From NCBI GenBank assembly GCA_021296475.1, contig JAGWAJ010000010.1:31792-89316 (forward strand): 57,525 bases of DNA. Direction: 5' to 3'. Below the pieces are notes generated by a model that was not told the DNA's origin, did not search any database, and saw only the letters and a list, made by a program, of their open reading frames with translations. Source of the DNA: Acidobacteriota bacterium. GTDB lineage: Bacteria; Acidobacteriota; Vicinamibacteria; Vicinamibacterales; UBA8438. Positions 4,054-16,993 of this stretch are shown one piece after another (positions within the stretch are counted from its first letter, which is position 1; each line of letters starts with the position of its first letter). The position numbers and the translations under genes are program-made.

Positions 4054-4136
4054 GATCTGCGCCGTAGAACGGGCTGACTCCCAGTAGGCTTGGCTGGGCA
4101 CCAGGCGGAGCCGTCAGGCGACGAATGGTGGGCTAG
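4054..4136 (+). repeat. Dispersed intergenic hairpin element, copy A
   Basis: It begins on the base after the Tsx-like stop codon with GATCTGCGCCGTAGAACGG and continues through the conserved module GGCTTGGCTGGGCACC, GGCGGAGCCGTCAGGCGACG and ATGGTGGGCTAG. It ends 34 bp before the phosphatase start. The left part can form an imperfect hairpin that could end transcription of the porin gene. Other copies are at 6685, 12093, 41882, 42905, 45050 and 47366. Confidence 0.8.
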
Positions 4137-4170
4137 CGGGACGCCTCGCGAGGTTTCGAGGGTCGAAGAC

Positions 4171-6684
4171 ATGGCGAAGTCCCACACCGGCGTGCTGTCC
4201 CGGTCCCTCGAGGCGTGGCGGACCCCGGCGCGCATGCGGCTGGCGGTCCGCGGCTTCCTGGCGCTGGCCGTCCTGCTCGCCGTCACGATCACGGCGACAT
4301 CGGCCACGCTGCTCTACAACGCGGCCACCGCGCTCCGCGACGAGGCGGAGGGGGCGGCCACGCACCTGGCGGAGCTCCTTTCGGCCAGCTTCGCGGAGAT
4401 GGGGGAGATCTCGCTCGCGAACGTCGCCCGCACGCTCGACGCGACGCTCGACGGGCAGATGATCGCCCAGGCGCGCATCGCCGCCCACCTGGTCGCCGCG
4501 GCGGAGGAGGCGGGCTTCGACCCGCCGCGCGTCATCGACGTTCTCGATGACATCATCGCGAACACGGTGCTCGACGAGTTCTGGATCACCAACGAGGCCG
4601 GCTTCTCCTATCTCACCAACGTGCGGGACGAGCAGGGCGATCTCGTCCCGTTCCAGTTCGATCCGGACCCGGCGGTCCAGCCGCAGGCGTCGAAGTTCTA
4701 TGTACTGCTCGCCGCGCCGGTCGGCGGGAACGACTTCATCACGCAGCCGGCGCAGGTGCGTGAGATCGATCAGGAGGTCTACAAGTACGTCGGCGTCAGC
4801 GGCGTCGACAAGCAGCGGATCGTGCAGATCGGCAACGCACTCGTGTTCGGCGAGCAGGAGATCCTGACCAACGTCCACACGTCGCAGCGGGCGGACGTCT
4901 CGGCCGTCATCGAAGGCATCCTGGGCCAGCACATGGCCGTGCAGGCCACCATCGTCGACCGCTTCGCGACCGCCGCCGAGGCGGCCGGCTGGAGCGCGGC
5001 CGATGTCGACCGAAGGCTGGGCCAGATTGTCTCGACGACCGCCATCGGCGAGATCCGCGTCGTCGACCGGGACGGAACGCCCGTCTATTCGAGCCTGTCG
5101 GCATCGGACGCGGCCGGCGAGGAGGTTCCGCACTTCGGCGAGTACGCCGGCCTCTTCGACGGTTCCGAGTCCTTCTTCGAGCACCCGTCCGAGCCGCGCG
5201 CCTCGGACGGAGTCATCTACAAGTACGTGACGGTCGCCAGCCCGGACGGGTCGCGCCTGTCGCAGGTCGGGATACCCATCGAGAGCAGCGCCGGCAACCT
5301 GCTCTACTCCGTGTACCAGCGCGAGGCCGACGTGCTGGTCCGCTCGCGGAACCTCGAGGCGCTGTGGGTCGTCAACCTGGAGGGAGATGTCACCGCCGCG
5401 GCGCCGCGTGCGGAGCTGGCCGCGGGCGCCGCGGGCGCTTTCGGGGGCCGGGTGGAGGCGGTCATGTCCGACGCGCTGGCGCAGGGGCGCGTCGTCAGCG
5501 CCTCGAGCCTGAGCCTCCTGACGCCCGAGGATCGCGGCATCTGGGTCGCGTCGCCCCTGATCAACACGGGTGGGATCCCGATCGGCGGTCTCGCCATATC
5601 GGTGAGCCTGGACGATATCGCGCTCACGGTGCAGGGTGAGGCACTGAACACGACCCTCATCGCGTTTGCGCTGCTCGGCCTCACCGCGTTAGCCGCGGCA
5701 TGGGGCACCCGGTGGCTGACGCATCCGATCGAGGTCATTGCCGACGCGGCTCGGCAGGTCGAGGCGGGCAACCAGCCCGAGGACGACGAGATGGAGGACG
5801 TCCTGCGGCGGCAGGACGAGCTCGGCAGTCTCGCGCGGGTGTTCACGGCGATGACCGTGCAGGTTTTCAACCGCGAGGAGCAGCTCGAGATGCTCGTCTC
5901 CGAGCGGACGCGGGACCTGGAGGAGAGCAACCACAACCTGCGTGTCGCGAAGGAGGCGATGGAGCAGGACCTGGAGATGGCCAAGGTCGTGCAGGCCGCC
6001 CTCGTGCGCGAGGGGACGGTCGAGATGGGCGTCTTCTCCGCGTGCGCGCGGATGACGCCGGCCCAGCGGGTCGGCGGGGACTTCGTCGACGTCATGGAGC
6101 CGGCGCCCGGCCGCCGCTGCCTCGTCGTCGGGGACGTCTCGGGCAAGGGGGTGGCCGCGGCGCTGTTCATGGCCGCCTCGCAGGCGGCGATCAAGGCCGC
6201 GTTCAGCGAGTGCGACGGTATCGACGACGTCACGAGCGCGGCGAACGACCGGGTCTGCCGCCAGAACCCGATGGGGCTGTTCGTCACCGCCGTGCTCGCC
6301 GTCGTCGATCCCGAGAAAGGCGCGGTCGAGTACGTCTGCGCGGGCCACGACCCGGCCTACCTGATCGGATCGGACGACGTGTGCCGGTCTCTGCCGGTGA
6401 CGGGAGGGCTCGCCATGGGCGTGATGGAGGAGTTCCCGTACGCGAGCCGACGACACGTGCTGCAGCCCGGGGAGACGCTCGTCCTGTATACGGACGGATT
6501 GACCGACGCAGTGAACGCAGGCGGGGAGCTGTTCGGCAAGGAGCGCCTGGAGGCCGCGCTGGTCGGTACCGCGCACCGGACGCCTTCGGAGGTCGTGCAC
6601 CATGCGTGGAGCGAGATTGGAGCCTTCTCGGCGGGCATGCCGGCCGCGGACGACATGACCTGCCTCGTGCTGCGCCGCCACTAG
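4171..6684 (+). CDS. Membrane sensor PP2C phosphatase (SpoIIE/RsbU type) with HAMP domain
   Basis: An 837-residue protein. It has a membrane helix at about 24-46, a large extracytoplasmic sensor region (~46-490) that may hold two Cache/PAS-like units, and a second helix at ~492-512. These are followed by HAMP (~512-565), a coiled coil (~565-610) and a SpoIIE-type PP2C domain (~625-837). The metal-binding motifs VGGDFVDV, VVGDVSGKG, YTDGLTDA and ADDMTCLVL are present. It should dephosphorylate a STAS-domain anti-sigma antagonist in response to an external signal. The frame is open back to 4090, but those codons lie in the repeat, so ATG 4171 is chosen. The kinase and STAS genes follow directly. 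Confidence 0.88.
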   Translation: MAKSHTGVLSRSLEAWRTPARMRLAVRGFLALAVLLAVTITATSATLLYNAATALRDEAEGAATHLAELLSASFAEMGEISLANVARTLDATLDGQMIAQARIAAHLVAAAEEAGFDPPRVIDVLDDIIANTVLDEFWITNEAGFSYLTNVRDEQGDLVPFQFDPDPAVQPQASKFYVLLAAPVGGNDFITQPAQVREIDQEVYKYVGVSGVDKQRIVQIGNALVFGEQEILTNVHTSQRADVSAVIEGILGQHMAVQATIVDRFATAAEAAGWSAADVDRRLGQIVSTTAIGEIRVVDRDGTPVYSSLSASDAAGEEVPHFGEYAGLFDGSESFFEHPSEPRASDGVIYKYVTVASPDGSRLSQVGIPIESSAGNLLYSVYQREADVLVRSRNLEALWVVNLEGDVTAAAPRAELAAGAAGAFGGRVEAVMSDALAQGRVVSASSLSLLTPEDRGIWVASPLINTGGIPIGGLAISVSLDDIALTVQGEALNTTLIAFALLGLTALAAAWGTRWLTHPIEVIADAARQVEAGNQPEDDEMEDVLRRQDELGSLARVFTAMTVQVFNREEQLEMLVSERTRDLEESNHNLRVAKEAMEQDLEMAKVVQAALVREGTVEMGVFSACARMTPAQRVGGDFVDVMEPAPGRRCLVVGDVSGKGVAAALFMAASQAAIKAAFSECDGIDDVTSAANDRVCRQNPMGLFVTAVLAVVDPEKGAVEYVCAGHDPAYLIGSDDVCRSLPVTGGLAMGVMEEFPYASRRHVLQPGETLVLYTDGLTDAVNAGGELFGKERLEAALVGTAHRTPSEVVHHAWSEIGAFSAGMPAADDMTCLVLRRH

Positions 6685-6716
6685 AGTCTGCGCCGTAGCA
6701 CGCCGTTTGTGCAGCG
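6685..6716 (+). repeat. Dispersed intergenic hairpin element, partial copy B
   Basis: Directly after the phosphatase stop codon the sequence reads AGTCTGCGCCGTAGCACGCC, the left arm of the hairpin found in the other copies. The right arm has drifted and the GGTTGGTTGGGCACC module is missing, so this is a partial or decayed copy. It lies between two genes of the same operon. Confidence 0.6.
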
Positions 6717-6752
6717 TGTCCCGCGGCTGCTAGGGTACGAGAGAGCCTGACC

Positions 6753-7226
6753 ATGAGCTTCAATGATCTGCGTCTGTCCGTCGCACCCCGGTTGTCGGGC
6801 GTCGGCAACGTGTCCAGGATCGTCGAGGCGTTCGGGGAGGAGAACGGGCTTGCGGAGCCGCAGGTCTACGCCATCAACCTGGCCCTCGACGAACTGATCG
6901 CCAACGCGGTGACCCACGGGTTCGCCGACGTCACCCGTCCGCGCATCGACATCGGCTTGCGGGTCGACGACGACCGCCTGGTCCTCACCCTGACGGACAA
7001 CGGTGCGCCGTTCGACCCGACACGGCACGCGGAAGCCGCCGACACCGAGTCGCCGCTCGAGGAGCGGAGCGCCGACAACCTGGGCCTGCACCTGGTGAAG
7101 TCCGTAGCGGACCGGGTGAGCTACGAGTTCAGCGCCGGCCGGAACCACCTGACGATGGAGCGCGACCTGGCCGGCGTGGCGGCGTGGCGGCGTAGCGGCA
7201 CGGTCGTGGGCCGCGGTGCGAGGTAG
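6753..7226 (+). CDS. RsbW-like anti-sigma factor serine kinase / GHKL ATPase
   Basis: A 157-residue HATPase_c_2 protein. The N box is visible as NLALDELIANAVTHGF, the G1 box as LTDNGAPFDP, and the G2-like segment as NLGLHLVKSVADRVSYEF. RsbW/SpoIIAB kinases bind a sigma factor or another output protein and phosphorylate the STAS antagonist. The gene lies between the SpoIIE-type phosphatase and the STAS gene (5 bp before the latter), giving the classical three-part partner-switching set. No sigma factor gene is adjacent, so the output partner is not visible. The C-terminal ~20 residues are Arg/Gly-rich and not part of the fold. Confidence 0.88.
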   Translation: MSFNDLRLSVAPRLSGVGNVSRIVEAFGEENGLAEPQVYAINLALDELIANAVTHGFADVTRPRIDIGLRVDDDRLVLTLTDNGAPFDPTRHAEAADTESPLEERSADNLGLHLVKSVADRVSYEFSAGRNHLTMERDLAGVAAWRRSGTVVGRGAR

Positions 7227-7231
7227 GGTGC

Positions 7232-7573
7232 ATGGACATTGAAGTCGCCGAGGAGCGGACCGAGGAGACGCTGATCCTGCTTCCGGTCGGACGTCTCGAC
7301 AGCGCGAACGCGCGCTCGTTCGAGGCGCTCGTCATGGAGCACATCGAGGGCGGGCAGCAGAGTCTGGTCATCGACTTCAGCCGGCTCAACTTCATCAGCA
7401 GCTCCGGGATGCGGGTGCTCCTGATCGCGGCCAAGAAGCTGCAGGCGAGCCGCGGCACCCTCGTGCTGTGCGCCATGAAGGACCACATCCACGAGGTCTT
7501 CCGCATCAGCGGCTTCGATCGGATCATCCCGATCAAGGACTCGCGCAAGGCGGCCCTCGGCGTAACGGGCTGA
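7232..7573 (+). CDS. STAS-domain anti-sigma factor antagonist
   Basis: A 113-residue single STAS domain (SpoIIAA/RsbV-like). Visible features are the strand LLPVGRLDSANARSFEALV, the segment SLVIDFSRLNFISSSGMRVL with the conserved Ser-rich phospho-acceptor site (ISSSGMR), and the C-terminal FRISGFDRIIPI. In the family it is phosphorylated by the RsbW-like kinase and reactivated by the SpoIIE-type phosphatase, both encoded just upstream. The gene converges with the ammonium-transporter pseudogene, which starts to lose homology about 90 bp beyond this stop. Confidence 0.9.
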   Translation: MDIEVAEERTEETLILLPVGRLDSANARSFEALVMEHIEGGQQSLVIDFSRLNFISSSGMRVLLIAAKKLQASRGTLVLCAMKDHIHEVFRISGFDRIIPIKDSRKAALGVTG

Positions 7574-11810: not shown

Positions 11811-12110
11811 ATGCCTGCATACTTCATCATGCGCGTCGACGTTCATGACGCCGAGGCCTACGAGAAGAACATCGAGCCCGCCGCGGAGGCGGTGAAGGCC
11901 TGCGGCGGCGAGTTCCTGGCCAGGGGTGGCCGATGCGAACAGGTGACCGGCCAGGGCCGCGGCCGCAACGTCATCGTCCGATTCCCCGACTTCGAAGCGG
12001 CAAAGGTGTGCATCGCGGATCCGAGGGTCCAGGAGGCCCTGCAACGGACGGACGGCGCGTGCTCACGGGACTCGACCATCGTCGAAGGGCTCCAGGAGTC
12101 CGCGTCGTAA
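11811..12110 (+). CDS. DUF1330 family protein
   Basis: A 99-residue protein with the ferredoxin-like dimeric alpha/beta-barrel fold of DUF1330. Visible are AYFIMRVDVHDAEAYEKNIE, FLARGGRCEQVTGQGRGRN and IVRFPDFEAAKVCIADPRVQ. Members bind small molecules or have enzyme-like pockets, with no defined role. The last five codons (Gln-Glu-Ser-Ala-Ser) and the stop lie inside the left arm of the repeat C hairpin, so the C-terminus appears to be supplied by the repeat. The start ATG follows a GAGAGGATACCG leader. Confidence 0.85.
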   Translation: MPAYFIMRVDVHDAEAYEKNIEPAAEAVKACGGEFLARGGRCEQVTGQGRGRNVIVRFPDFEAAKVCIADPRVQEALQRTDGACSRDSTIVEGLQESAS

Positions 12111-12326: not shown

Positions 12327-13496
12327 ATGAGCAGACCTCGCGTAAATCGCCGCATCCGTTACGAGCCGGACGAACAGCCCCCGCCCTTCGTGACGCTCGG
12401 TGTCGCCCTGCAGGGCGTCGTTCTCGTCCTCGCGAACACGGTCCTGATGGTGACGATCGTGGTCGGCGCGGCCGGCGAGGACGATGTCTACCTGTCCTGG
12501 GCGGTGTTCGCGGCCCTGATCATCGCCGGCGTCACCACGGCCCTGCAGGCGGCTCACGTCGGTCGGTTCGGCGCCGGCCATATCCTCATGATCGGCGCGG
12601 GGCCGCACTTCATCGCGGTCTCCGTCGTCGCGCTGACGGAAGGCGGGCTGCCGACGCTGGCGAGCCTCATCGTCGTAGCGTCCCTGTTTCAGTTCGCAAT
12701 GGCCGCCTGGCTGCCTTTCCTGCGGCGCATCATCACGCCGATCGTGTCCGGCACCGCGCTCATCCTGATCGGGCTCGCGGTCATGCCCATCGCCGTCGGC
12801 AGGATCGCGGAAGCGTCCGAGGGTGCGCCGGCCGGCGCCCTGATCGTTGCCGGCATGACGCTGGTCGTCGCTACCGCGATGGCGCTGCGCGCCTCGGGCG
12901 TGTGGCGGCTGTGGGCGCCGCTCAGCGGCATCCTGGCCGGCTGCGCGCTGGGGAACGGAAGCGTGCTGGAGGGCGTCCTGGGTGCGACATGGAGCGCTTC
13001 ACTGGGCAACGGCATGACCGTCGGAGTGCTGGCCGCGATCCTGATGACGGCTTTCCTGGAGCTCACAGGTCCGCGACGCCGGCGACTGGAGGCGGTACTC
13101 GACACCTCGGCGCTCCCGCAGATCGATGCTCTCCTGCGCGAGGTCGCAGGCCGGATGAAATGGAGCCGCGCCTCCGTGGATCAGTTGCGCGCGGCCGGCG
13201 AGGAGGCGTTGACGTGTCTGTTGCAGGTGCGCGGGGACCAAGTTGCTGAGATGCCGCCGCGCATGATCCTCGTGGCGCGTCCCGGTCCGGAGGTGGTCGA
13301 CCTGGAGTTCCTGGCTGTCTTCGACGAGCAGAACATCGAGGACCGCCTGACCTATCTGGGAGACCGTGCGGAGACCCCGGAGGAGAGCGAGTCCGAGATC
13401 TCGTTCCGCCTGCTGCGGCACTACGCCTCGTCCGTGCGTCACAAGAAGTACCACGGCATCGATGTCGTCACGGTGAAGGTCGCGGGTTCGCGCTGA
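12327..13496 (+). CDS. Half-length NCS2-like permease fused to a degenerate GHKL/RsbW-like domain
   Basis: A 389-residue protein. Residues ~20-230 are membrane helices resembling the first half of xanthine/uracil permeases (NCS2). Marks are VTLGVALQGVVLVLANTVLM, the AAHVGRFGAGHILMIGAGPH segment, RRIITPIVSGTALILIGLAV and WRLWAPLSGILAGCALG. The second half of an NCS2 transporter, with its substrate-site helices and NTR-type signature, is missing; after one further helix the chain enters a soluble domain (~245-389). That domain has an EEAL N-box-like helix and ISFRLLRHYASSVRHKKYHG, which aligns with the G2 region of RsbW-type ATPases. ATG 12327 is chosen; codons back to 12210 lie in repeat sequence. 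Likely a sensor or regulatory derivative, not a transporter. Confidence 0.6.
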   Translation: MSRPRVNRRIRYEPDEQPPPFVTLGVALQGVVLVLANTVLMVTIVVGAAGEDDVYLSWAVFAALIIAGVTTALQAAHVGRFGAGHILMIGAGPHFIAVSVVALTEGGLPTLASLIVVASLFQFAMAAWLPFLRRIITPIVSGTALILIGLAVMPIAVGRIAEASEGAPAGALIVAGMTLVVATAMALRASGVWRLWAPLSGILAGCALGNGSVLEGVLGATWSASLGNGMTVGVLAAILMTAFLELTGPRRRRLEAVLDTSALPQIDALLREVAGRMKWSRASVDQLRAAGEEALTCLLQVRGDQVAEMPPRMILVARPGPEVVDLEFLAVFDEQNIEDRLTYLGDRAETPEESESEISFRLLRHYASSVRHKKYHGIDVVTVKVAGSR

Positions 13497-13623: not shown

Positions 13624-15594
13624 TCAGGTCGAGCGCCGGTCGACGGCCAGCACGACGCAGAACAGGATGACTCCCGCGACGTCGAAGACCGCTACGTCGA
13701 GGCCGGCGAGCGAGGCGGTCGGCCCGGGAGCCAGGAGCAGCCCCGCCGCGGCGAAGACCGCCAGGCGCAGACCGAGGCCCAGGGGCCGGCTGAGCTGGCC
13801 GGCGATCCCGGCTGCGAAGCACGTGACGCCCAGCGTGGCGATGGCGACCGGCAGCAGCATCCCGAGCCAGCTCGCGGCCTCGCCCGAGGGCGTGAGCATG
13901 AGCAGCTCCGGCCGGTAGATGAACATGTACGGCAGGGTGAACCCGACGAGCGCGAAGCGGAACGCCGCCAGGCCCGTCGGCATGATGCGGGTGCCGGCGA
14001 TCGACGACGCGGCGTAGGCCGCGAGCGCCACCGGCGGCGTCACCATCGACATCATTCCGAAGTAGAAGATGAAAAGGTGCGCGGCGAGCGGTATCACGCC
14101 CAGGTTGCCGAGCACCGGGCCGATGAGCGTCGCCATCAGGAGATAGCAGACGGCGGAGGGGAGCCCCATCCCGAGCACGATCGACGAGATCATTATCAGG
14201 ATCAGGGCCAGGAACAGGCTCTGCTCGGCGAGCGGAATGATGGTTGCCGGCAGGCGGGTCCCGACTCCGGTCAGGGTCACGACGCCGATGATGATGCCGA
14301 CGCAGGCGGCGGCTGCGACCAGCGGCACGACCCCCCGCGCCGCGGTGACGAGGCTCACGAGCGTGAAGCGCCAGTCGAGGCGGGTTGCCTTGCTGAGGCT
14401 GCTGACCGCGACGATCACGACGAGCGACAGCGTCACGGCGCGGAACGCCGTGTAGCCGAGCACCAGGAACAGGATGAGGCTGCCGAGCGCCGATCCGAAC
14501 ACGACGCCCGCTGCGCGCGATCGCGCGGCGACTTCCGGCGTGTCGGGTCCGGGCGCGGCCGCCTCTCCCGGCCCGGCGGCGATCGCAACGCGCTTCGCGT
14601 GGAAGTGCACGATCAGGATCAGCGACAGGTAGTACAGGAGCGCCGGAATGAGCGCCGCCCGGATGATCTCCAGGTACGTCACGGGCGGGTCGACGATCTC
14701 GAGCATCATGTAGGCGCCCGCGCCCATCACCGGGGGCATGAGCGCCCCGCCGGAGCTCGCCGCCGCCTGCACGCCGGCCGCCGTCACGGGTTTGAAGCCG
14801 GCGCTCCGCATCATCGGAATCGTGAAGGTCCCGGTCGTCGCGGTGTTCGCGACCGCGCTCCCGGAGAGCGACCCCATGAGTCCGCTGCTCAGGACCGCCA
14901 CCTTGGCCGGGCCACCGGAGCTGCGGCCGAACACCCGTTCGGCAAAGTCGACGATGAAGCGGGTGGCGCCGGTTGCTTCGAGAAACGCGCCGAAGATGAC
15001 GAACAGGAAGACGTAGGTGAACATCACGTTCAGCGCCACGCCGAAGATGCCCTGGCTGTGCAGGAACGTCTGCGCCACGACGCGCTCGATGCCGTAGCCG
15101 CGATGCGGGAACAGCCAGTCCGGGAACGCCGCTCCGAACAGGGCGTACAGGATGAATGCCCCCGCCAGCAACGGCAGAGCCAGCCCGAGGGCGCGCCGGG
15201 CCGCCTCTATCACCAGGCCCAGGCCCAGCAGGCCGATTGCCGTGTCGTACGCCGACTCGAACCCGGCCCGATTCCCGAGGGACTGGCCGTTCACCCACCA
15301 CCCATCGAACAGCGGATCGGTCTGGGTGACGATGTAGCCGCAGCACAGGGCGGCCAACCCCGCCAGCACGACGTCCAGCGCACGGGCGCGCGGATTGTCC
15401 TTCAGCGAGGGGTGGACAGGGATGTTGAGGAAGCAGAGGGTCAGCCCTACCAGCGCAAAGAACGCGAGCCGGCTCTGGGGCGCCAGCAGCGGATAGTTCA
15501 CCTCGATCAAGGTGAAGGCGCACAGCAGAACGCCGAGGCCGCCGCTGACGAGAAGCCGGACGTCGCGCGCCGGAGCGGTGCTCTCCTGGGTCAC
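13624..15594 (-). CDS. TRAP transporter fused permease (DctQM type)
   Basis: A 656-residue polytopic membrane protein with the TIGR02123-type architecture: a small DctQ-like N-terminal part (~1-190) fused to a DctM-like part. The DctM region shows AVLSSGLMGSLSGSAVANTA and TTGTFTIPMMRSAGF, ASSGGALMPPVMGAGAYMML and GMGLPSAVCYLLMATLIGPV. It should import an organic acid or other solute by sodium or proton coupling, fed by the solute-binding lipoprotein encoded upstream. The GTG start overlaps that gene's stop by 4 bp (GTGA). It is the last gene of the nine-gene leftward array. Confidence 0.92.
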   Translation of the reverse strand: MTQESTAPARDVRLLVSGGLGVLLCAFTLIEVNYPLLAPQSRLAFFALVGLTLCFLNIPVHPSLKDNPRARALDVVLAGLAALCCGYIVTQTDPLFDGWWVNGQSLGNRAGFESAYDTAIGLLGLGLVIEAARRALGLALPLLAGAFILYALFGAAFPDWLFPHRGYGIERVVAQTFLHSQGIFGVALNVMFTYVFLFVIFGAFLEATGATRFIVDFAERVFGRSSGGPAKVAVLSSGLMGSLSGSAVANTATTGTFTIPMMRSAGFKPVTAAGVQAAASSGGALMPPVMGAGAYMMLEIVDPPVTYLEIIRAALIPALLYYLSLILIVHFHAKRVAIAAGPGEAAAPGPDTPEVAARSRAAGVVFGSALGSLILFLVLGYTAFRAVTLSLVVIVAVSSLSKATRLDWRFTLVSLVTAARGVVPLVAAAACVGIIIGVVTLTGVGTRLPATIIPLAEQSLFLALILIMISSIVLGMGLPSAVCYLLMATLIGPVLGNLGVIPLAAHLFIFYFGMMSMVTPPVALAAYAASSIAGTRIMPTGLAAFRFALVGFTLPYMFIYRPELLMLTPSGEAASWLGMLLPVAIATLGVTCFAAGIAGQLSRPLGLGLRLAVFAAAGLLLAPGPTASLAGLDVAVFDVAGVILFCVVLAVDRRST

Positions 15595-16601
15595 GGCGCG
15601 GCCTGTTGCGGCCAGACCCCGGCCTCCTGGTAGAAGCGAATCGCGCCGGGATGGAACTCCGTGCCCGTGTCGCGCACCACGTTGTTCGGGTTGATGGCCC
15701 GTCCCGCCGCGTGCTTCTCGACGACCAGCTCCCGGTTCTCGTAGAGCAGCCTCGTCACGTTGTAGACCAGGTCCTCCGGGGCGCCGGCCGAGGTGATGAC
15801 GTGCATCGATCCCACGTCGAGCCCCTCGAACGGCTCGGTCTGCCCGCGATAGGTGTCGGCGGGAATGGTTGCGGGGCGGAAGAAGACGTACTCGTCGGCG
15901 AGCTGCGCCATCTCGTCGCTCCCGTAGGGGATGAACGTGATGTCCATCGACGCCGCGGCCTGCGTGATCGATGCCGTGGGGACCGCCCCGCCGAGGAAGG
16001 TCGCGTCCGCCGAGCCGTCCGTCAGCATGTCGACGGCGGCCTGCTGCGTGGCGTTGAGCGGCGAGAAGTCGTCGTAGGTCACGCCGTGCGCTTCGAGCAG
16101 CGGACCGACGAAGTACTCGAACCCGGCGCCCGCGGGACCGACCGAGACCCGCCGGCCGCGCAGGTCGTCGAGGCTCTCGATGCCGGACGACGCCTGCGTG
16201 ACGAACAGCGCGACGTTGGGCGCCAGAGTCATGACGGAGCGGACCGGATAGGCGCGGTCCCAGCCCTCGCTGCCCCGCACCGCGAAGTAGGTGATGGCCG
16301 CGTTCGACAGGGCGAAGTCCAGCTCGCCGCTCGCCAGCCTCCGGATGTTCTCCTGCGAGCCGCTCGTCGCCTCGGCGGTCACGCTGTAGCCGAACCCGGT
16401 CGCGGTCTCGTTCACGACCTCGGCGAGCGCGCTGCCGACGACGAAGAAGGCGCCGCCGGGGGGCGCCGTCCCCATGCTGAGGAACTGCCGGGACGGCGCG
16501 GCGTCACCCGCATCGCCGCCGCTTCCGCCGCCGCACGCGGCGACGGCCACGCACAGGGCACCGAGTACACCCGCCGGCCACCGAAGTATGGATCGACGCA
16601 A
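15591..16601 (-). CDS. TAXI family TRAP transporter solute-binding lipoprotein
   Basis: A 336-residue protein. The start is taken as TTG 16601, which has an AGGAGG site exactly 6 nt upstream; an in-frame ATG exists further up but would add an unlikely leader. Residues 1-23 form a lipoprotein signal with lipobox VAAC (Cys23). The mature part shows TAXI features: FLSMGTAPPGGAFFVVGSAL, AEATSGSQENIRRLASGE, DFALSNAAI, LRGRRVSVGPAGAGFEY and FIPYGSDEM. It should capture a small organic solute for the fused permease. Ligand identity cannot be read; glutamate-like and aromatic acids are known for the family. Confidence 0.92.
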   Translation of the reverse strand: MRRSILRWPAGVLGALCVAVAACGGGSGGDAGDAAPSRQFLSMGTAPPGGAFFVVGSALAEVVNETATGFGYSVTAEATSGSQENIRRLASGELDFALSNAAITYFAVRGSEGWDRAYPVRSVMTLAPNVALFVTQASSGIESLDDLRGRRVSVGPAGAGFEYFVGPLLEAHGVTYDDFSPLNATQQAAVDMLTDGSADATFLGGAVPTASITQAAASMDITFIPYGSDEMAQLADEYVFFRPATIPADTYRGQTEPFEGLDVGSMHVITSAGAPEDLVYNVTRLLYENRELVVEKHAAGRAINPNNVVRDTGTEFHPGAIRFYQEAGVWPQQAAP

Positions 16602-16639
16602 GAAATGCCTCCTGGAACCCGCAGATGGTACTACGCTTC

Positions 16640-16993
16640 TCATTCCGGGCCGAAGATCGACAGCAGGTGCCCGTCCGGATCGCGGAAGTTGGCGGCCCAC
16701 GAGTCTCCGGTGACGTTGGCCGGCTCCCGCAGGAACTCGACCCCCTTCTCCCGCAGCGCCGCGTAGGCCTCGCGGACGCTCGCCACCGACAGGACGACCT
16801 CCGATGGTCCGGGGTGCTCGGCGAGCCGCGCATGCGCCGCGCTGAGGCAGAGAGTGACCGGACCGGTCTCGAGAAAGACGAATCCGGGAATCTCCTGCTT
16901 CACCGCCACACCCAGCGTGTCCCGGTAGAACGCCCGCGCGCGGTCGAGGTCCGCGGCGCCGAGCATCACGTTGGCAATTCCGGTGATGGTCAT
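16640..16993 (-). CDS. VOC (glyoxalase/dioxygenase superfamily) protein
   Basis: A 117-residue single VOC domain: ANVMLGAADLDRARAFYRDT, PGFVFLETGPVTLCLS, REAYAALREKGVEFL and a terminal NFRDPDGHLLSIFGPE with the usual metal-ligand Glu position. ATG 16993 has an AAGGAGGAG site upstream and overlaps the stop of the CoA-ligase gene by 4 bp. It lies 38 bp before the TAXI gene. The reaction is unknown; VOC proteins include glyoxalases, isomerases and resistance proteins. Confidence 0.9.
   Translation of the reverse strand: MTITGIANVMLGAADLDRARAFYRDTLGVAVKQEIPGFVFLETGPVTLCLSAAHARLAEHPGPSEVVLSVASVREAYAALREKGVEFLREPANVTGDSWAANFRDPDGHLLSIFGPE

Follow-up and report, generated by a model that had tools for sequence, protein, structure and literature searches.

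A half NCS2 permease with an RsbW-like tail probably arose by deletion within a multi-copy family of full-length fusions and is most likely decaying

The window (the whole stretch of DNA analyzed here, 57,525 nucleotides from an Acidobacteriota bacterium) contains an open reading frame in which part of an NCS2 permease is joined to a degenerate RsbW-type domain. An earlier note on this DNA suggested that the gene encodes a transporter-derived sensor of a distinct, half-permease design that feeds a partner-switching pathway, a kind of pathway whose input normally comes from phosphatases that carry sensor domains. The locus therefore raises the question of whether a shortened permease can be a sensor in its own right or whether the gene is the remnant of something larger. 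Our results favor the latter: the window gene probably derives by deletion from a multi-copy family of full-length NCS2-permease/RsbW-pseudo-kinase fusions, and it is most likely decaying. The gene and its parts are as follows.

12327–13496, plus strand: complete ORF of 389 aa, an internally deleted NCS2-permease/RsbW-like fusion, colinear with orthologues of 581–582 aa except for one 192-codon gap
12327–12947, plus strand: retained N-terminal permease part, residues 1–207 (TM1–7), from PF00860, TIGR03173, and TIGR00801 matches and orthologue identity, with helices taken from the model of the orthologue L038
12947–12954, plus strand: deletion junction, where 576 bp (TM8–13) are absent compared with four orthologues, from the DNA alignment, with helix limits from the L038 model
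13011–13067, plus strand: retained last permease helix, TM14, aligned to L038 residues 421–439
13068–13493, plus strand: C-terminal domain of predicted RsbW/SpoIIAB fold with its ATP-binding motifs lost (pseudo-kinase), from model, Foldseek, profile-profile comparison, and motif counts

The NCS2 profiles cover only residues 19–208 of the 389-aa protein, which corresponds to the first half of the profile, as the note had claimed. The individual matches were to PF00860 (8e-10, positions 6–197 of 389), TIGR03173 (1.4e-19), and TIGR00801 (1.7e-13). The note's further claim that the substrate-site half is missing needs trimming: TM8–13 are absent, yet TM14 is retained together with TM1–7 and the C-domain, so that six helices rather than a whole half are gone. 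The complete 14-helix, 7+7 core-gate NCS2/NAT fold is thus lacking in the window copy and present in the full-length orthologues. The substrate-site helices TM8 and TM10 fall inside the deleted 576 bp, and with them the positions of the acidic substrate residue of TM8 and of the NAT motif (Q/P-N) of TM10. With both of these helices lost, along with the greater part of the second inverted repeat, the window product should not transport.

The deletion became visible upon comparison with orthologues from four genomes, of which three (G001, G002, and G003) belong to the same genus and one (G022) to a neighboring genus. The note had proposed a search for full-length relatives with an intact permease, and these four genomes provided them: from a common start, their proteins run to 581–582 aa and contain a complete permease followed by the same C-terminal domain. 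Window residues 1–207 are 88–92% identical to L036, L038, and L039, residues 1–222 are 86% identical to L037, and residues 205–389 are 84–87% identical to the four orthologues. Between the two aligned parts, the orthologues carry 192 codons without a counterpart in the window copy, and the DNA gap was exactly 576 bp, in frame, in all four comparisons. One copy in this genome would thus have lost TM8–13 in frame through a short-homology deletion. The idea of the half-permease as a sensor design of its own did not survive this comparison, and the gene serves as a caution that what looks like a remarkable half-domain arrangement may be no more than a common deletion, visible only through orthologues.

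A first alternative is that the organism has a full-length gene and that the contig represents a rare molecule with the deletion, either as an assembly artefact or as a minority allele. The window's genome is a metagenome-assembled genome of 160 contigs and 85% completeness, the deletion is judged from contigs alone, and metagenome assemblies can follow minority variants. Against this, the deletion ends have only ~2 bp in common and there is no long repeat at the junction, which rules out repeat collapse or misjoining by a k-mer assembler. The missing segment was found on no other contig of this 85% complete assembly, which yielded just paralogues of 47–53% identity; on the same grounds, we rejected the idea that the missing half is located elsewhere in the genome. 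Different shortened copies also occur in other genomes, one of which consists of only three contigs (see below). We consider this alternative improbable, and the deleted molecule was probably present in the sample, as judged from the assembly alone. The note had conceded that its reading would fall if close relatives revealed the missing half to be an assembly deletion; the relatives do reveal a deletion, although a real one rather than one of assembly, as far as this can be judged.

In the window's own genome, a search found three more copies of the family, and its relatives have many more. Across 15 genomes we counted 78 copies, of which 65 were full length by span. Most of the 80 GTDB loci with a C-domain matched all three segments (N, middle, and C); the exceptions were a deleted copy in G014 (L057), L109, which is cut by a contig end, L071, which has a rearranged tail, and the G020 gene (L047), whose parts are broken into frames. 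Further shortened or broken copies all differ in their endpoints: in L043 and L126 the deletion is in frame and spares the C-domain or its tail, L041 and L040 are frameshifted, and L130 is both. In the three-contig genome G007, an N-terminal fragment (L127) and a C-terminal fragment (L128) each stand alone. These varied deletions and frameshifts point to decay of single copies in a multi-copy family, which is also the most likely reading of the window gene as an internally deleted copy. The full-length fusion itself is real and widespread in uncultured bacteria of several phyla.

Two other damaged loci were observed. In the window's genome, a second damaged copy lies on G000 contig 14 (L007:1501–2982) and is without the first 86 permease residues. 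At L071:4671–5417, a C-domain that retains just the final permease helix stands in the same frame behind an apparent piece of a short-chain dehydrogenase, which looks like a rearrangement or a chimeric contig.

Also improbable is that the shortened protein is functional, with eight helices as a membrane anchor that displays the RsbW-like domain as a constitutive sensor freed from substrate control. The frame is intact across the junction and, because an even number of helices was removed, the C-domain should still face the cytoplasm, a topology that we infer from the helix model. The retained parts have dN/dS values of 0.11–0.23 compared with G001, G002, G003, and G022, indicating purifying selection similar to that on the full-length orthologues, and at least two other in-frame deletions (L043 and L126) keep the C-domain or its tail. 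In a fold built from an interdigitated 7+7 repeat, however, TM1–7 plus TM14 would be expected on general grounds to bare buried surfaces. Moreover, every shortened copy ends elsewhere, others are frameshifted (L041 and L040), and the four in-frame cases among six internal deletions are not clearly above the one third expected. The dN/dS values gave no sign of relaxation and so provide no proof of a pseudogene; the purifying selection fits a recent deletion and is likewise no proof of function.

We then considered the C-terminal domain. Its 142 residues alone matched no Pfam or NCBIfam model, and phmmer and hmmsearch comparisons of the whole protein and of the C-domain with PDB sequences returned nothing meaningful. 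A template-free AlphaFold2 model of the 142 residues (pLDDT 81, pTM 0.76) was compared with known structures by Foldseek; the top 19 PDB matches were all UsfX, RsbW, or SpoIIAB (E 4.5e-8 to 6.8e-5), with CheA and further kinases of the GHKL type ranking next. HATPase_c_2 was weakly matched by 4 of 20 relatives, the best value of 1.5e-5 falling short of the curated cut-off, and three of the fusion genes were picked up in a genome scan that used the same model (PF13581). In a profile-profile comparison, 116 C-domains aligned with 30 local RsbW-type sequences over 129 columns (E 1.4e-4) with a score of 31.5; the highest score from 20 column shuffles was 15.9. This alignment pairs EISFRLLRHYASSVRH with NLGLHLVKSVADRVSY, the same pairing with RsbW that had been proposed from the sequence alone.

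The predicted fold and strand-helix order are therefore those of the anti-sigma serine kinases RsbW, SpoIIAB, and UsfX (HATPase_c_2), a GHKL fold of the SpoIIAB/RsbW type. Of the ATP/Mg motifs of these kinases (N-box E-x3-N, G1 D-x-G, and G2 G-x-G), only the N-box Glu remains (115 of 116 C-domains). The Mg-binding N-box Asn is absent from all 116, the G1 D-x-G is gone, Gly boxes are absent in nearly all, and the G2 Gly is replaced by Ser in 103 of 116. Additional differences from the kinases are the fusion to a permease and a new motif, LLRHxASSVRH, that is nearly invariant across the 116 domains. The description of the C terminus as a degenerate RsbW-type GHKL domain was thus well founded, and the model and alignments identify it as an RsbW-fold pseudo-kinase under strong conservation. 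Given the known role of the lost motifs, canonical ATP binding is not expected.

The full-length orthologue L038 (581 aa) matches PF00860 over nearly the whole profile. Its structural model is of moderate confidence (pLDDT 67.6), with UapA, UraA, and SVCT1 as best structural matches (E from 2.5e-14), and on the basis of this model the NCS2 fold of the full-length protein is safe. The family therefore resembles the NCS2/NAT (SLC23) transporters UraA, UapA, and PbuX/XanQ (E about 1e-14 for the match of L038 to the UapA/UraA structures) and differs from them by the extra RsbW-like domain of about 140 aa. Most members also differ at the substrate site: among 107 sequences, the TM8 Glu is usually replaced by Lys or Arg, as is the N of the TM10 NAT motif by other residues, and the orthologues of the window gene have Lys in TM8 and the pair PP in TM10. 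A smaller paralogous subfamily, the E-type, keeps Glu or Asp at TM8 and the N of the NAT motif. This division into K-type and E-type residues suggests two substrate classes, and the altered TM8 and TM10 positions would point to a non-nucleobase, perhaps anionic, substrate or to a receptor role for most members.

Fusion of a transporter to a partner-switching domain has a counterpart in SulP/SLC26 proteins with a C-terminal STAS domain. They share a related 7+7 fold, SLC26 structures being among the matches of the L038 model, and their C-terminal domain likewise comes from the partner-switching toolkit. SulP/SLC26 transporters carry the STAS side of the switch, whereas the family described here carries the RsbW-side partner. 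If true, a permease with such a partner would link nutrient sensing directly to partner switching, as a mirror image of SulP STAS. The family joins two known kinds, a permease and a degenerate RsbW domain, and we found no description of the full-length NCS2-RsbW fusion in the open-access literature.

The gene had also been noted to lie 4.8 kb from a phosphatase-kinase-STAS set, and an RsbU-RsbW-STAS set does lie at that distance, at 4.1–7.6 kb. The neighbors considered here are listed below.

4090–7573, plus strand: genes for RsbU (SpoIIE and HAMP domains), RsbW (6753–7226), and a STAS protein (7232–7573), assigned by domain matches; a neighbor and at most a candidate partner of the fusion
11811–12110, plus strand: DUF1330 gene (PF07045, 3.5e-23)

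In three genomes of the genus, the set lies no more than ~6 kb from the orthologous fusion (a STAS gene was seen in each, and RsbW was checked in G001); it was not found near the orthologue in the other genera examined. Because it is conserved near the fusion only within the genus, its closeness argues just weakly for a pathway link, and its candidacy as the dedicated partner is weakened. Among the GTDB loci examined, 32 have a gene of the DUF1330 type near the full-length fusion, an assignment checked with Pfam in the window and in L048. On the other side, a fused TRAP permease (DctM) and a TAXI/NMT1-type binding protein are encoded convergently to the gene (window 13624–16700, minus strand).

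The main support for a STAS link of the intact family comes from three loci and one published cluster. A STAS gene (115 aa) and then an ORF of ~90 aa lie directly upstream of the fusion, on the same strand, at L075:2634–3365, L087:2503–3198, and L095:3065–3771. Direct adjacency was seen in these 3 of 80 loci, two of which (L075 and L087) are from Gemmatimonadota, and the fusion in L095 is apparently frameshifted. As genomes hold 1–10 STAS genes each, we judge three adjacencies to be more than expected by chance. The published swf cluster from a symbiont of Plakortis simplex has, beside PKS genes, a 557-aa “permease” (ORF17) with SupE (ABE03914) as best match, followed by an anti-anti-sigma factor of 115 aa and an ORF of 92 aa (ORF18–ORF19) (PMC3908369). 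We liken this SupE-like permease to the family by its similar length and gene order; its membership is a lead only, and the published account of the cluster does not mention an RsbW-like domain (PMC3908369). The proposal of a transporter-derived sensor in partner switching thus holds in that a transporter-RsbW fusion exists, and its pathway part lives on as a hypothesis for the full-length family, to whose STAS link these loci lend independent support; as a reading of the window gene as a half-permease sensor, it fails.

How might an intact protein work? In the full-length family, a 14-helix NCS2-fold permease would carry a cytoplasmic C-terminal RsbW-like pseudo-kinase. The permease part may bind or move a small molecule, and its conformation would determine if the RsbW-like domain, acting independently of ATP, can hold a STAS protein, thereby coupling substrate availability to a partner-switching circuit. 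We put forward this substrate-controlled holding of STAS by an RsbW mimic only tentatively. About as likely is a purely intramolecular role, in which the C-domain is a cap that regulates its own permease through auto-inhibition or a dimer contact and takes no part in partner switching. Loss of the ATP motifs, the invariant private motif, the absence of an adjoining STAS gene at most loci, and the general frequency of cytoplasmic regulatory tails on transporters all speak for such a cap, although the STAS gene and ~90-aa ORF upstream in three loci and, in the published swf cluster, the STAS gene beside a SupE-like permease (PMC3908369) speak against it. Rather unlikely as a whole, though the most far-reaching, is the proposal that the family forms a new type of sensor in the membrane, an NCS2 transporter (often with the TM8 Glu-to-Lys change) whose ATP-independent pseudo-RsbW sequesters STAS according to substrate occupancy, in a circuit partly tied to symbiont polyketide clusters and with the window copy as its deleted form.

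The abundance of the family in uncultured bacteria of several phyla, in some beside PKS genes, makes it a testable lead. In about 20 GTDB loci (L083, L093, L065, L097, and ~16 others), the fusion lies beside genes for an alpha/beta hydrolase, a phosphopantetheinyl transferase, an ACP-like ORF, and a type I (KS-AT) PKS, to which it is arranged tail-to-tail. These loci resemble the sup/swf clusters of sponge symbionts. When L083 was checked, the small ORF was without a Pfam match and the synthase carried an ACP domain.
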